The position numbers and the translations under genes are program-made. The notes under the pieces are model-generated. The model was not told where the DNA came from. It made no database searches and saw nothing but the letters and a program-made list of their open reading frames with translations. A stretch of DNA of 64,000 bases, from assembly GCF_007004665.1 (NCBI RefSeq), contig NZ_ML660052.1:744001-808000 (forward strand). The letters run 5' to 3'. Each line of letters starts with the position of its first letter. The stretch's first letter is position 1. Positions 30,443 through 38,986 of the stretch are shown here, in pieces. Source of the stretch: Denitrobaculum tricleocarpae (lineage in GTDB: Bacteria; Pseudomonadota; Alphaproteobacteria; Kiloniellales; Kiloniellaceae).

Positions 30443-31780
30443 ATGGTTGCGAAAAAACGGACGGCGGCGTCTTCGGCTACTGCCAAGGCCAAACCGGCAA
30501 AGAAAAAGGTTGCCGCTAAGCCGGCTGCCAAACGGACTGCAGCAGCTAAGAAGCCAGTCGCTAAAAAGACTGTCGCTAAGAAGCCTGTAGCCAAGAAGAC
30601 CGCGGCGAAGAAGCCAGTCGCGAAGAAGGCAGTGGCGAAGAAGCCCGTCGCTAAAAAGACTGCGGCTAAGAAGCCCGTCGCTCGCAAGACTGCAGCCAAA
30701 AAGACTGTAGCCAAGAAGACTGCGGCCAAGAAGCCCGTCGCTCGGAAGACTGCAGCCAAAAAGACTGTAGCCAAGAAGACTGCGGCCAAGAGGCCCGTCG
30801 CTCGCAAGACTGCAGCCAAAAAGACTGTAGCCAAGAAGACTGCGGCTAAGAAGCCCGTCGCTCGCAAGACTGCAGCTAAGAAGCCTGTGGCTCGTAAGAC
30901 CGCGGCTAAGAAGCCGGTCGCTCGCAAGACCGCGGCTAAGAAGCCTGTGGCTCGTAAGACCGCGGCTAAGAAGCCGGTCGCTCGCAAGACCGCGGCTAAG
31001 AAGCCTGTGGCTCGTAAGACCGCGGCTAAGAAGCCGGTGGCTCGTAAGACGGCAGCCAAGAAGCCTGTCGCTCGTAAGACCGCGGCTAAGAAGCCTGTCG
31101 CTCGTAAGACGGCGGCTAAGAAGCCTGTCGCTCGTAAGACGGCGGCTAAGAAGCCTGTCGCTCGTAAGACGGCAGCTAAGAAGCCGGTCGCTCGTAAGAC
31201 GGCAGCCAAGAAGCCTGTCGCTCGTAAGACCGCGGCTAAGAAGCCGGTCGCTCGTAAGACGGCAGCTAAGAAGCCTGTCGCTCGTAAGACCGCGGCTAAG
31301 AAGCCGGTGGCTCGTAAGACGGCAGCCAAGAAGCCGGTCGCTCGCAAGACCGCAGCCAAGAAGCCGGTCGCTCGCAAGACCGCGGCTAAGAAGCCGGTCG
31401 CTCGTAAGACCGCGGCTAAGAAGCCGGTCGCTCGCAAGACCGCGGCTAAGAAGCCGGTCGCTCGTAAGACCGCGGCTAAGAAGCCGGTCGCTCGTAAGAC
31501 CGCGGCCAAGAAGCCTGTCGCTCGTAAGACCGCAGCCAAGAAGCCTGTCGCTCGTAAGACCGCAGCCAAGAAGCCGGTCGCTCGTAAGACCGCAGCTAAG
31601 AAGCCGGTCGTCCGCAAGGTTGCAGCTAAGAAACCAACGGCTAAGGCCGCTGTTGCCAAGAAGCCAGTCGTGCGGAAAGCCGTCACCAAGCGTCCTGTGA
31701 CGTCGAAGGTTATGGCCAAGCGTCCGGTTTCTGTGAAGCCTTTCCGCTATGTGTGGTCGAATGGTGCTGTAAGCCGGTAA
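30443..31780 (+). CDS. Histone H1-like Lys/Ala-rich repeat protein
   Basis: The 445-aa protein is built almost wholly from a ten-residue unit (TAAKKPVARK), resembling AlgP/AlgR3 and H1-like proteins that coat DNA. The first ~70 residues are irregular AAKK/PVAKK blocks, then about 32 units run from 30661 to 31620. The first four lines alternate TAAKKPVARK with TAAKKTVAKK (a 60-base period); from about 30841 it becomes homogeneous. The end is PFRYVWSNGAVSR. The chain is strongly basic and probably binds nucleic acid nonspecifically. ATG 30443 has GAGG about 11 bases upstream. An antisense frame of 450 codons mirrors the repeat but is not a gene. Confidence 0.88.
   Translation: MVAKKRTAASSATAKAKPAKKKVAAKPAAKRTAAAKKPVAKKTVAKKPVAKKTAAKKPVAKKAVAKKPVAKKTAAKKPVARKTAAKKTVAKKTAAKKPVARKTAAKKTVAKKTAAKRPVARKTAAKKTVAKKTAAKKPVARKTAAKKPVARKTAAKKPVARKTAAKKPVARKTAAKKPVARKTAAKKPVARKTAAKKPVARKTAAKKPVARKTAAKKPVARKTAAKKPVARKTAAKKPVARKTAAKKPVARKTAAKKPVARKTAAKKPVARKTAAKKPVARKTAAKKPVARKTAAKKPVARKTAAKKPVARKTAAKKPVARKTAAKKPVARKTAAKKPVARKTAAKKPVARKTAAKKPVARKTAAKKPVARKTAAKKPVARKTAAKKPVVRKVAAKKPTAKAAVAKKPVVRKAVTKRPVTSKVMAKRPVSVKPFRYVWSNGAVSR
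30643..31620. repeat. 30-bp tandem repeat array within the H1-like gene
   Basis: About 32 copies of a 30-bp unit (coding for TAAKKPVARK) lie in phase with the reading frame. Third-base differences between copies (such as ctcgtaagac, ctcgcaagac) form mosaic patterns, indicating repeat turnover by slippage or unequal exchange. The left part has a 60-bp higher-order unit. Confidence 0.92.
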
Positions 31781-35509: not shown

Positions 35510-35995
35510 ATGGATCCGACGTTAAATGGCAATGAGAATGCCGGGTCTGAGGATAAGGCGCAGATGGATGAAGCGAGGAAAGCTCGGCGCCGTTTGCTGA
35601 AGCTTGGCGCTGCCTCTGCGCCGCTGGTTCTGACCTTCAAGCCGAGTTCGGCCTGGGCAGTCTCCGCAGGTTGTATTTTGCATGAGGGCAAGCGGGAGAC
35701 ACCCGGCAAACTCTACAAGGTCGACGGTTACATGCGGCGGATGGTGCGTCACGACAACGGCATCTACTACAAGTTCCGCTATGGTCGTTGGATGTACTGG
35801 CATGGCGGCCACCGGCGCTTTTACGATTTGAATAAGGGCCCTTATCGCAGAGTTCGCCACTACCAGGAAATCTACATGAATAAAGGGCCCGGCAGTGTCG
35901 TTCAGGCCGGGAACGTCAATCACACCAAGCTGCGGGCGTTGGTTTACAATGACAACGTGGGCTGGTCCTGTGTGAGTTCGATTATTCAGTCTTAA
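35510..35995 (+). CDS. Secreted protein with RRR-type signal, HPr-rel-A-linked
   Basis: The 161-aa protein has an N-terminal ARKARRRLLKLGAASAPLVL region, a Tat-like (twin-arginine) signal followed by a hydrophobic stretch and likely cleavage after SSAWA. The mature part, ~110 residues, starts VSAGC and is rich in Tyr, Arg, His and Gly (for example YKFRYGRWMYWHGGHRRFYD), with a second Cys in GWSCVSS. No family is recognised. ATG 35510 has GAGGAG about 10 bases upstream. It is the first gene of a block also holding a PqqD-like protein, an HprK-related kinase and a nucleotidyltransferase, so it may be the modified substrate; this is inference. Confidence 0.7.
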   Translation: MDPTLNGNENAGSEDKAQMDEARKARRRLLKLGAASAPLVLTFKPSSAWAVSAGCILHEGKRETPGKLYKVDGYMRRMVRHDNGIYYKFRYGRWMYWHGGHRRFYDLNKGPYRRVRHYQEIYMNKGPGSVVQAGNVNHTKLRALVYNDNVGWSCVSSIIQS

Positions 35996-36090
35996 CGCTA
36001 CGTCGGTCCTGTCGTGAATTGCGGGATCGAGTGTCGAAAAGCTTGGGGAGCGGGCGCGGGCCGAATTTCGGTCGCGCCCGTTATTTCGTC

Positions 36091-36387
36091 ATGAATGAAG
36101 CATCGCACCTCTGGTACGTTCCCGAGTCCGGCAGCCTTGTCTGGCGGTCGTTCGACTCCTATTCACTGCTCTACAACGAACGCTCGGGAAACACCCATGT
36201 TCTGGATCCGCTCTCGCGCGAGATCCTGGATCTGCTTCAAGAGTCCCCGCGCGACGAGAGGGCTCTGCTCCAGGAACTGACCAGCCTGGTGGGTGATGAC
36301 GATCCGGAGGCTCTCCGCGAGGCGATCGGCGAAGCTCTCGTTGCCTTTGATTCCGCCGGCCTCATTTTTCCGGCATACCATTCTTAA
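36091..36387 (+). CDS. PqqD-like protein (HPr-rel-A system type)
   Basis: The 98-aa protein has the PqqD fold pattern: WYVPESGSLVWRSFDSYSLL followed by LYNERSGNTHVLDPLSREIL and a C-terminal helical segment ending GLIFPAYHS. PqqD-like domains bind peptide substrates for a modifying enzyme. Members linked to HprK-related kinases form the HPr-rel-A subgroup, whose job is unknown. ATG 36091 is preferred because it gives the usual length; the frame continues upstream to TTG 36019 and GTG 36031. The kinase gene starts 24 bases later. Confidence 0.75.
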   Translation: MNEASHLWYVPESGSLVWRSFDSYSLLYNERSGNTHVLDPLSREILDLLQESPRDERALLQELTSLVGDDDPEALREAIGEALVAFDSAGLIFPAYHS

Positions 36388-36411
36388 ACTTCGCGGTGTT
36401 ATAAGAGCGCC

Positions 36412-37368
36412 GTGAATACACCAGATCGAATCATTTCGCCGGAGACGGGCGCGCAGGTGACGCGCGACCTCAATCGCGGCAGGCTCAAGTTCAAGGTCGG
36501 TCCCCTCGTGGCCCGCATTGGGACAAGCTATCCCCTGTTGCAGCGGGACTTTCTGGATATCTATCGCGGATATCCGTTGGCCGGGCCTGAGGAATTCGTG
36601 CATTTCAATCTGAAGGTCGACCCGGTGTCGCTGTTGCGACGCTGGATCAGACCCAAGATCATCGCGGACGGCGGCTTCATTGCGTCGCCCTTCGTGCCCT
36701 TGCGCGGCGATTTGGCCATTCTCGCTTTGGAGATGGGTTTGAACTGGCAGGTGGGCACCAGGTCCGACCAGTTTCTGATCTTTCACTCTGGCGTCGTGGC
36801 GAAAGATCCCGCGCCGGGCGAGGACGGGCCGAGCCGGGCCGTGCTCATGGCCGGAGAATCCGGCGCGGGTAAAAGCACACTGACGGCCGGGCTTGCCTAT
36901 AGCGGCTGGCGGCTGTTCTCCGATGAATTCGGGCTTCTGGATACCTCCGATCTGCATCTTTATCCCTACCCACGGCCAATCTCACTGAAAAACGAATCCA
37001 TCGAGGTGATGACGAAGCGTCTGGGCGAAGATGTTTTCAGCAGGCCTTTTCTCAATACGCTCAAAGGCACGATCCGTTATCTCAGGGCGCCTTCGGAAAG
37101 CCTGATCAATGGTCATAAACCGGCCCGCCTGGATCTGATCATCTTCCCTCAGTACGTCGAGGGCTCGACCGGGGGGATCAGCGAGTTCACCGGCGCGGAG
37201 GCTTTTGCCATGCTGCGGGGCGCCAGTGTGAATTGCGACCGGGTCGGGCGGTCTGCGTTTGATGCCCTGTCGGCGTTGACCGGGCGCTGCAAAGTCTACG
37301 GCTTGCAATACGGCTCGATGGATATGGCCATAGGGATGGTCGAGGCCCTGATGGAAGATGCAGCATGA
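36412..37368 (+). CDS. HprK-related kinase A
   Basis: The 318-aa protein is related to the HPr kinase/phosphorylase C-terminal domain. It has a Walker A loop GESGAGKSTL near residue 148 and LFSDEFGLLD with acidic residues downstream, matching HprK active-site motifs. An N-terminal 120-residue part lacks the HprK N-domain. HprK phosphorylates Ser46 of HPr; no HPr gene is near, so the target here is unknown. It starts GTG 36412, 24 bases after the PqqD-like gene, and its end overlaps the nucleotidyltransferase ATG by 4 bases, showing tight coupling. Confidence 0.82.
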   Translation: MNTPDRIISPETGAQVTRDLNRGRLKFKVGPLVARIGTSYPLLQRDFLDIYRGYPLAGPEEFVHFNLKVDPVSLLRRWIRPKIIADGGFIASPFVPLRGDLAILALEMGLNWQVGTRSDQFLIFHSGVVAKDPAPGEDGPSRAVLMAGESGAGKSTLTAGLAYSGWRLFSDEFGLLDTSDLHLYPYPRPISLKNESIEVMTKRLGEDVFSRPFLNTLKGTIRYLRAPSESLINGHKPARLDLIIFPQYVEGSTGGISEFTGAEAFAMLRGASVNCDRVGRSAFDALSALTGRCKVYGLQYGSMDMAIGMVEALMEDAA

Positions 37369-38543
37369 AGGGCCTGCCCGAAGACCTGAAGACGCTGCTG
37401 ATTGCGCCGCAGTTGGCGAGAAACTGGTCCGCCGAGCGATGGTCGCGCGCCGCTTATCTTGCGCAATCAGGCGCCGTCTTGAGCCGTGTCGCCGTCGATT
37501 TGGCCGCTCTCGATCAGGATCCTGCGGACCAGGATGCCGCGAACCAGGACGCGGGGGATCAGGATGCGGGGGATCAGGCTCCTCCCGGGGTTCCCGGACT
37601 TGACGCTTGTCTGCTCTCGGCCATGCGTAACGGTGCGCGCAGCCAGATGCGGCTGTCCTGGGAAATGGATCGTATCAAGCGCGTTTTCTGGGATCGCGAC
37701 CTCAAGATCGTACTGCTGAAGGGGGCTGCCTATCTGGCGGCCGGGATTCCCTGCACCCGTGGTCGCCTGAGTTCCGACATCGATATCATGGTCGCAAAGG
37801 ATGAACTTGCCGGCGTGGAAGCTGCGCTGTTGGATGCGGGTTGGGTTTCCGCCAAGGAAATGCAGGGCGAGGAAAGCGGCGGCTACGACGACGACTATTA
37901 CCGCAGATGGATGCATGAATTGCCGCCGCTGGTGAACAGCGAGCGCAAAACCGTCGTTGACGTCCATCACACGATCCTGCCGCCCACGGGCCGGGTCACT
38001 GCCGACGCTGCTGAACTACTGGATCAGGCCGTCCCGGTGGAGTCCGAGGCTCATGGTCTGAAGGGTTACTTTGTCCTCTGCGATACGGACATGTTCCTGC
38101 ACTCGGTGGTGCATTTGTTTCAAGACGGCGAAATCCGCGGCGGACTGCGTGACCTCGTCGATCAGACCGATATGATCCGGTATTTTGGCGCGCGCCCTGG
38201 TTTTTGGGAGCGTTTGATCACGCGCGCTGGAGACCTTGGTCTGGGACGTCCGCTCTATTACAGCCTGCGCTATAGCTCCGCGCTTCTGGATGGCCCGGTT
38301 CCTGCTTCGGCTCTACAGGACGCTCAGCGTTTTGCGCCGCCCCTGGCTGTGCGTATGCTGATGGACCTGCTGGTTCCGCGTGCCTTGTCGCCAAGCTATC
38401 TCTTCGAGTCCGATCGCGGTGCCGGCCTCGCGGGCGAACTCCTCTACATCCGCTCCCATTGGCTCCGTATGCCGCCGCTGATGCTGACGCGCCATCTCGC
38501 CATCAAAGCCTGGCGCCGGATCGGTGGCGAAAAGACCGCTTGA
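37365..38543 (+). CDS. NTP_transf_5 nucleotidyltransferase family protein
   Basis: The 392-aa protein has the NTP_transf_5 (PF14907-like) pattern: IVLLKGAAYLAAG and RGRLSSDIDIMV with the DxD metal-binding acidic pair near residue 142. It could transfer a nucleotide to a protein or small molecule; many relatives lie in HPr-rel-A-type or peptide-modification loci. ATG overlaps the upstream stop. Between residues 48 and 75 there is an insert of 5-6 imperfect repeats (DQDPADQDAANQDAGDQ), coded by 15- to 18-base repeats and likely an unstructured linker, not present in the core family. Confidence 0.78.
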   Translation: MKGLPEDLKTLLIAPQLARNWSAERWSRAAYLAQSGAVLSRVAVDLAALDQDPADQDAANQDAGDQDAGDQAPPGVPGLDACLLSAMRNGARSQMRLSWEMDRIKRVFWDRDLKIVLLKGAAYLAAGIPCTRGRLSSDIDIMVAKDELAGVEAALLDAGWVSAKEMQGEESGGYDDDYYRRWMHELPPLVNSERKTVVDVHHTILPPTGRVTADAAELLDQAVPVESEAHGLKGYFVLCDTDMFLHSVVHLFQDGEIRGGLRDLVDQTDMIRYFGARPGFWERLITRAGDLGLGRPLYYSLRYSSALLDGPVPASALQDAQRFAPPLAVRMLMDLLVPRALSPSYLFESDRGAGLAGELLYIRSHWLRMPPLMLTRHLAIKAWRRIGGEKTA

Positions 38544-38614: not shown

Positions 38615-38986
38615 ATGGAGTCAGGGGCGGTGATGATATCCGGTGTGGTCTCTTCCCTCACAATGGCGGTGCTGTTCGTCAATATGCCTCTGAGCGGCGA
38701 GGCCTGGCCGCCTTATCTCACCGGCGCGGATCTCGCTGCCGCCTGCGCGAGCGAGGAGCCCGCGCAACAGGGGCTTTGCCTTGGCTACATCCGCGGCGTG
38801 GCGGATGTGCTTGGCGGCCCGGGCGCGATAGTGGACGGTATCCTTGCCTGTCTTCCCGGCGGCGAGACAGGCGAGCAGGTGGTGACGCTCGTGAAGGATT
38901 ATCTGGCCAAAAATCCGCAGCTCGGCAATCTCAAGGCGGACGGCCTGGTGGCCTACGCCTTGTCGCTGTCTTTCCCCTGCGAATAA
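38615..38986 (+). CDS. Rap1a/Tai-family-like secreted protein
   Basis: The 123-aa protein has a signal peptide-like start, then LTGADLAAACASEEPAQQGLCLGYIRGVAD, CLPGGETGEQVVTLVKDYLA and LSFPCE, with four cysteines spaced as in Rap1a/Tai immunity-like proteins. In other bacteria Rap1a neutralises a type VI amidase effector; here no effector or secretion gene is visible, so immunity is not implied. ATG 38615 and ATG 38633 are both possible starts; the second has GGGGCGG upstream and trims residues ahead of the signal peptide. Confidence 0.68.
   Translation: MESGAVMISGVVSSLTMAVLFVNMPLSGEAWPPYLTGADLAAACASEEPAQQGLCLGYIRGVADVLGGPGAIVDGILACLPGGETGEQVVTLVKDYLAKNPQLGNLKADGLVAYALSLSFPCE

Follow-up and report, generated by a model that had tools for sequence, protein, structure and literature searches.

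The systems closest to the locus described here are those in which HprK-like kinases phosphorylate ribosomally synthesized and post-translationally modified peptides (RiPPs) in the company of a RiPP recognition element (RRE); the statements made here on three papers (PMC9266682, PMC10368454, PMC13381572) rest on portions of their text. In the phosphorylated lasso peptides (paeninodin, pseudomycoidin and Bsf), a PqqD-like B1 protein is found together with an HprK-like kinase and a nucleotidyltransferase (PMC9266682, PMC10368454). BsfK phosphorylates Ser3 of its precursor in a reaction that is accelerated by the RRE, with H148, K169, D186 and D187 as catalytic residues (PMC10368454). PadeK and PsmK modify a C-terminal Ser, and in pseudomycoidin PsmN transfers a hexose onto the phospho-Ser (PMC9266682). 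In the linear polyphosphorylated peptides (LPP), LppK polyphosphorylates Ser3 of the core, the clusters carry genes for an RRE as well as for an HprK-like kinase and an NTP transferase, and deletion of lppN had no effect in that system (Popov et al. 2026, PMC13381572). The HPr-rel-A system defined in NCBIfam comprises models for a kinase and a PqqD-like protein. Here we analyze a cassette of four genes on the same strand, at positions 35510-38543 of the window, as we call the whole stretch of 64,000 nucleotides from Denitrobaculum tricleocarpae under study (contig NZ_ML660052.1, positions 744,001 to 808,000), which encodes, in this order, a secreted protein, a PqqD-like protein, an HprK-related kinase A and an NTP_transf_5 enzyme.

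We judge it probable that this cassette makes a modified protein exported by the twin-arginine translocation (Tat) pathway, the RRE presenting the precursor, the kinase phosphorylating a Ser, NTP_transf_5 tailoring the product and Tat exporting it. By analogy, the best explanation of the locus is that it would be a Tat-exported counterpart of the phosphorylated lasso peptides and of the linear polyphosphorylated peptides reported in 2026, the modification itself being presumed. The gene set, its co-occurrence, the catalytic residues, the kinase fold and the conserved motifs, all obtained by computation, are the basis of this reading.

The four open reading frames (ORFs) that a first-pass annotation of this DNA had placed in the order given above are all present on the forward strand, and profile scores confirm their families. 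The PqqD-like protein, of the discrete RRE type (36019..36387; TTG start, with an alternative in-frame ATG at 36091), scored 62.7 bits against TIGR04353 (cut-off 35) and 31 bits against PF05402 (23.4), and the HprK-related kinase A (36412..37368; GTG start) reached 243.7 bits against TIGR04352 (cut-off 200); since both exceed the cut-offs of their models, the locus belongs to the HPr-rel-A system of NCBIfam. The NTP_transf_5 enzyme (37365..38543) scored 153.1 bits against PF14907 (cut-off 31.2). The genes had also been annotated as overlapping, which holds for the kinase and NTP_transf_5 genes, the latter starting within the kinase stop by 4 nucleotides (ATGA), the sole overlap in the cassette; the other two junctions are gaps, of 23 nucleotides between the secreted and PqqD-like genes (95 if the ATG start is used) and of 24 between the PqqD-like and kinase genes. 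Predicted promoters and terminators occurred in numbers near those of shuffled sequences, and Rfam gave no match. A 15-nucleotide tandem repeat of 2.3 copies (37545-37578) lies in a QDAGD-rich linker of the NTP_transf_5 gene.

The secreted protein, the proposed substrate (35510..35995; ATG start, 161 residues), begins with a charged N-terminal extension of 25 residues ahead of the twin arginine (35510..35584), as read from the sequence, followed by the Tat-like signal RRRLLKLGAASAPLVLTFKPSSAWA (35585..35659), recognized by sequence and alignment; TatC is encoded elsewhere in the same genome. It gave no Pfam or NCBIfam match at E values up to 1, and neither do the models of the HPr-rel-A system or any other specific model cover its family, for which searches with 78 and 20 relatives yielded nothing beyond isolated weak matches, of which several were to Tat-signal models. 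Members appeared in two types, I and II, the window protein belonging to the latter; loci absent from the type II list were taken as type I by default, so that type I holds the remaining named loci plus some Alphaproteobacteria. The relatives were collected in two profiles, A2 for the secreted family (78 of the 88 listed substrates, 71 type I and seven type II) and A6 for the type of the window protein (20 of the 44 type II sequences); a further set, A5, comprises 40 kinases. Two loci on the same contigs as L027 and L028 (L056 and L061) contribute neither to A2 nor to the trees or motif counts; they are included in the 96-locus and 89-locus counts given below.

What is common to the family is the N-terminal part, namely the extension, the twin arginine and the hydrophobic stretch, which is similar in both types, while the mature part is variable. 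The twin-arginine positions are conserved in 77/78 and 78/78 rows of A2, Thr or Ser occupies position T47 in 73 of the 78, and the extension is net negative in 77 of the 88 listed members, whose lengths range from 93 to 276 residues (the shortest type II sequence has 76 residues as trimmed). Across the 20 type II rows of A6, R26, R27, C55 (35672..35674), C154 and S157 are invariant, the last two lying within the C-terminal motif SCVSSI (residues 153-158; 35966..35983). The protein had been annotated as a Tat-like protein rich in Tyr, Arg and His; the leader is indeed conserved, whereas that richness is not maintained in the alignment of relatives, which keep instead the leader, one Cys and the C..S motif. 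The genome of the window holds one clear member of the family, a second match (E 0.014) looking like a solute-binding protein when judged by eye from its sequence.

Along the P-loop, the kinase profile could be aligned with HprK, and the kinase model, with a predicted local distance difference test (pLDDT) value of 93.8, found its best fold matches in PEPCK and then in HprK. Within the catalytic stretch (36784..36927), His125, the Walker A motif with Lys154 and the pair Asp171-Glu172 can be recognized. The arrangement H-21-K-17-D-E occurs in 118 of 130 kinases, and its H-21-K-17-D part has the very spacing of H148, K169 and D186 in BsfK; in the window kinase the spacing is 29 and 17, owing to an insert between His and Lys. 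HPr kinase/phosphorylase shares with these proteins the P-loop kinase fold and the aligned His, Lys and Asp, but by sequence the P-loop half alone aligns, and the neighbours found here point to an exported substrate and not to HPr. As for NTP_transf_5, a KG..R..DxD pattern was present in 113 of the 116 ORFs found, and in the window the nucleotidyltransferase-type active site corresponds to Asp-Ile-Asp (37776..37784); a comparison with the PDB by sequence gave no informative match.

Co-occurrence in relatives, set beforehand as the check on the locus, was strongly positive. In a sample of 398 Pseudomonadota genomes the kinase was detected in 61, and the secreted family in 60 of these, in 57 by A2 or A6 and in three (G678, G712 and G746; loci L201, L228 and L204) by inspecting the locus, where a Tat-like gene precedes the kinase. 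The single kinase genome with no member found, G569, is 57% complete and has its kinase at a contig end. Matches to A2 were obtained in 28 of the 398 genomes, 26 of them among the 61, and to A6 in 48 of 374, all among the 61. Because of this co-occurrence the secreted gene is not merely a neighbour, and that candidate explanation was ruled out. When the kinase regions of 35 kinase genomes without an A2 match were inspected, a Tat-like gene was adjacent in 31 (at L197 with a gap of ~450 bases); of the other four, three (G461, G472 and G593) have a member elsewhere and none adjacent, and one is cut. In a class sample of 385 genomes the kinase exceeded its cut-off in ten, A2 matched nine and both were found in eight (hypergeometric probability 4e-14). 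The ninth A2 genome shows the secreted gene, the PqqD gene and then the contig end, and the two kinase-only genomes show a Tat-like gene in one case (L040) and a weak match only in the other (L033). Among 23 genomes of the family, the kinase was over the cut-off in six and the secreted gene was present in the same six, plus one weak match to a longer protein. Several would-be exceptions were discarded: the matches in G661 and G714 have a Sec signal and nothing in common with the family but the type I mature domain, the weak matches in G022 and G115 look by eye like ordinary Tat enzymes and solute-binding proteins, and G146, a candidate for a substrate without a system, has a PqqD gene next to it, after which the contig ends. 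No relatives were found in viral contigs.

We considered 96 loci, that is, the window, 15 kinase regions of the class sample and 80 named loci (80 of at least 551 stretches confirmed in a kinase-based contig scan). A profile search of their 7367 six-frame ORFs placed one secreted member upstream of the PqqD gene in 90, with no second match in any of the 96 at E values up to 1, a detection that is partly circular because 28 of these very proteins served as seeds for the profile, which was then iterated. Among the six other loci, the sequence of L081 and L082 starts inside or just before the PqqD gene; L062 lacks a visible PqqD gene; at L041 the kinase is below the cut-off; at L033 the weak match lies after the kinase; and L040 carries at the expected place a Tat-like gene that the first secreted-protein profile missed and A6 found. 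The distance from the secreted stop to the nearest possible PqqD start was at most 60 nucleotides in 83 of 89 loci. Even in five genomes with split cassettes (G421, G461, G511, G521 and G646) the secreted gene still adjoins a PqqD gene: in G421, G461, G511 and G646 the kinase lies on a different contig, with no PqqD gene before it in the stretch inspected, and in G521 it is on the strand opposite to the secreted gene.

Downstream of the kinase, 125 loci had enough sequence, and in 116 of them the kinase is followed by NTP_transf_5. Of the nine that differ, six have a TPR-sulfotransferase after the kinase (stretches L255-L260, beside the kinases of L212, L219, L220, L221, L223 and L208), with NTP_transf_5 as the next gene in three, so that there is room in the cassette for an additional tailoring enzyme. 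At L212, L221 and L223 kinase and PqqD stand together, and ~2 kb of sequence beyond them showed no NTP_transf_5. A survey of neighbours at 41 loci (55 of 80 upstream and 73 of 147 downstream ORFs) showed that genes beyond the four vary, any family among the matches listed accounting for at most 4/55 upstream and 4/73 downstream. XrtA/PEP-CTERM exopolysaccharide genes adjoin some loci (pepcterm_export in 4/55 upstream, PEP_resp_reg in 3/73 downstream), and a link to polysaccharide is therefore only a possibility.

The two substrate types differ in their mature parts. Type I proteins typically have a folded domain with GYWK-like and LLNA-like motifs; the model of one of them (L045) has a mean pLDDT of 80, with values >90 over most of the C-terminal part, and neither its sequence nor its fold gave an informative match in the PDB. 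After the signal, in a region of low confidence in that model, a stretch C-x3-S-x3-S-x3-S is conserved among the 71 type I rows of A2, with C59 in 69/69 (two gaps), S63 in 70/71, S67 in 71/71 and S71 in 65/71. A strict pattern of it fits 54 of 79 type I sequences, and the stretch occurs in none of 44 type II sequences, which rules it out as a universal acceptor. Two Sec-signal proteins from kinase-less genomes carry the type I GYWK/LLNA domain (L229 1987-2886 and L230 812-3094), and these relatives have no Ser stretch. Type II proteins, in turn, show [ST]C[WFLIVYM]xS[FLIY] near the C-terminus in 43 of 44 cases, versus 19 of 8800 shuffled mature parts, followed by at most seven residues in 35 of the 43 and by 12-24 in the remainder; as background, 4972 six-frame ORFs with a minimum length of 80 residues include 25 that carry the motif, 15 of them within the last 35 residues, the type II members of those loci being counted in. 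A very short type II member (L225 1878-2210) consists of a Tat-like signal and ~20 residues and keeps SCLDSF. In the kinase tree, whose 120 rows comprise 80 of type I and 40 of type II, and which leaves aside L033, L041, L062, L081, L082 and L227 and the kinases of L195, L213, L216, L231 and L234, substrate type changes twice, versus 33.9 times in shuffles; on the PqqD tree, which is poorly resolved, it changes six times in 118 rows. The family of the window organism holds both types, its own genus having type II, and G016 and G021 type I.

From these data we infer the binding, the acceptor, the chemistry, the order of the steps and the role of the product. The PqqD-like RRE would bind the conserved N-terminal part, extension and Tat signal together, and bring the precursor to the kinase, in such a way that the Tat signal may double as a leader. 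The HprK-like kinase would then phosphorylate, or perhaps polyphosphorylate, a conserved Ser, for which the best candidate in the window protein is Ser157 of SCVSSI, and in type I proteins one of the Ser of the stretch after the signal. NTP_transf_5 might next move a nucleotidyl or sugar group onto that phosphate, and after Tat export and removal of the leader by signal peptidase the tagged protein would be active outside the cytoplasm. By analogy, the known acceptor sites, which lie either C-terminally or near the beginning of the core, appear to resemble, respectively, the type II and type I Ser motifs, that is, the type I and type II Ser motifs. Modification before export, already proposed in the first-pass annotation, fits because of the recurrent gene set, the Tat signal and the published systems in which a precursor Ser is phosphorylated and the HprK-like kinase is accompanied by an RRE and an NTP transferase; of the two reactions then envisaged, direct nucleotidylation now appears less likely than phosphorylation followed by tailoring. 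That annotation also held the biochemistry to be unsolved, which applies at most to this class, since the related kinases BsfK, PadeK, PsmK and LppK have been characterized.

The resemblance to the LPP clusters includes a precursor with a conserved N-terminus and a variable remainder, a discrete RRE, an HprK-like kinase that modifies a Ser of the core, an NTP transferase and, often, polysaccharide loci nearby (PMC13381572). The LPP systems, however, belong to Bacillota and have their own SpI leader peptidase, an MsbA-like exporter and a YxxPx leader motif, whereas here we find Pseudomonadota and a Tat signal; the main text of PMC13381572 mentions neither twin-arginine, Pseudomonadota nor Gram-negative. 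The four genes include no SpI-like peptidase or MsbA-like exporter, and neither do the 25 commonest neighbour families listed per survey. With regard to the lasso peptides, the precursors here are longer, and only 14 of the 88 listed members end in Ser, so that a Ser at the C-terminus is no requirement and the lasso rule for the acceptor is ruled out; the window protein itself ends in Ser while its relatives L029 and L030 do not. A macrolactam cyclase or B2 protease is not among the four genes of the cassette, no search having been aimed at either. The HPr-rel-A system, TIGR04352, TIGR04353 and PF14907 went unmentioned in the openly available literature searched, subscription papers and preprints lying outside that search.

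A number of observations weigh against the proposed pathway. The HPr-rel-A kinases have Glu at the position of the second Asp of BsfK (D187). Types I and II have no Ser position in common and Cys154 is as conserved as Ser157, for which reasons the acceptor Ser is a guess. The motif [YW]xxPx[LVIAFY] of lasso and LPP leaders occurs in 0/79 type I and 2/44 type II leaders and is absent from the window leader, and recognition of the leader by the PqqD-like protein must therefore differ. The co-occurrence is partly circular, as cassettes of this kind supplied the profile rows (14 of the 48 genomes matched by A6 had contributed to it), and the clustering of types on the kinase tree reflects near relatives in part. 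Furthermore, L228 and L062 show no PqqD gene, and in G593 and G472 none was found beside the secreted gene (in G593 it accompanies the kinase, the secreted gene being elsewhere; in G472 it was found near neither). Finally, G375 has two extra type I members (L142 5578-6255 and L143 5622-6320) with no cassette gene found beside them; these are possible substrates in trans.

Other arrangements of the same parts can be envisaged. The PqqD-like protein, the kinase and NTP_transf_5 might have a polysaccharide or a small molecule as their substrate, with the secreted protein as an unmodified co-expressed partner such as a periplasmic carrier of the product. Small molecules are also substrates of PEPCK-fold and nucleotidyltransferase enzymes, and the XrtA/PEP-CTERM genes beside some loci would suit such a function; we nevertheless hold it to be unlikely, since an RRE of the PqqD type suggests that the client is a peptide, the secreted gene remains next to a PqqD gene in the five split genomes, the neighbours beyond the four genes vary and the kinase clade follows the substrate type. 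That the trio licenses export, by modifying or guarding the leader so that only finished precursor enters Tat while the mature protein remains unmodified, would agree with the leader being the part common to both types and with the conserved Thr or Ser at T47. The type-specific Ser motifs lie in the mature part, however, and the type I Ser stretch is absent from the two Sec-signal relatives of kinase-less genomes, which makes such licensing decidedly improbable.

In another arrangement NTP_transf_5 would modify the secreted protein directly, in an AMPylation-like reaction, perhaps on Tyr, with the kinase acting elsewhere. We find this very unlikely despite the intact DxD motif and the Tyr richness of the window protein noted by eye, as that richness is not conserved, kinase and PqqD stand at L212, L221 and L223 with no NTP_transf_5 seen within ~2 kb, and in pseudomycoidin PsmN acts on a Ser that is already phosphorylated (PMC9266682). 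RRE-guided phosphorylation of the exported protein remains our preferred reading.

Outside the cassette, a Rap1a-domain protein (PF18602) is encoded directly after it, at 38615-38986. Upstream, at 30443-31780, lies an ORF of 445 residues, rich in lysine and alanine and histone-H1-like, which contains a 30-nucleotide unit repeated 35.5 times (30545-31610).

In a wider and more tentative proposal, which may well prove incorrect in part, the cassette could represent a common pathway of Pseudomonadota, undescribed in the literature searched, with the Tat signal serving at the same time as a leader of the RiPP type. A conserved Ser of the exported proteins would be (poly)phosphorylated and capped with a nucleotidyl or glycosyl group before translocation, perhaps to join a surface protein to polysaccharide through a phosphodiester, and two kinase clades would serve two substrate classes that have different acceptor sites. 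To the two proteins that NCBIfam names as HPr-rel-A, our analysis adds a concrete, testable client and likely acceptor motifs. If our reading is correct, RRE-guided phosphorylation would extend from small peptides to Tat-exported proteins of ~90-280 residues in Pseudomonadota, and the need for ATP-dependent tailoring in the cytoplasm, before export, would be the reason for the use of Tat.

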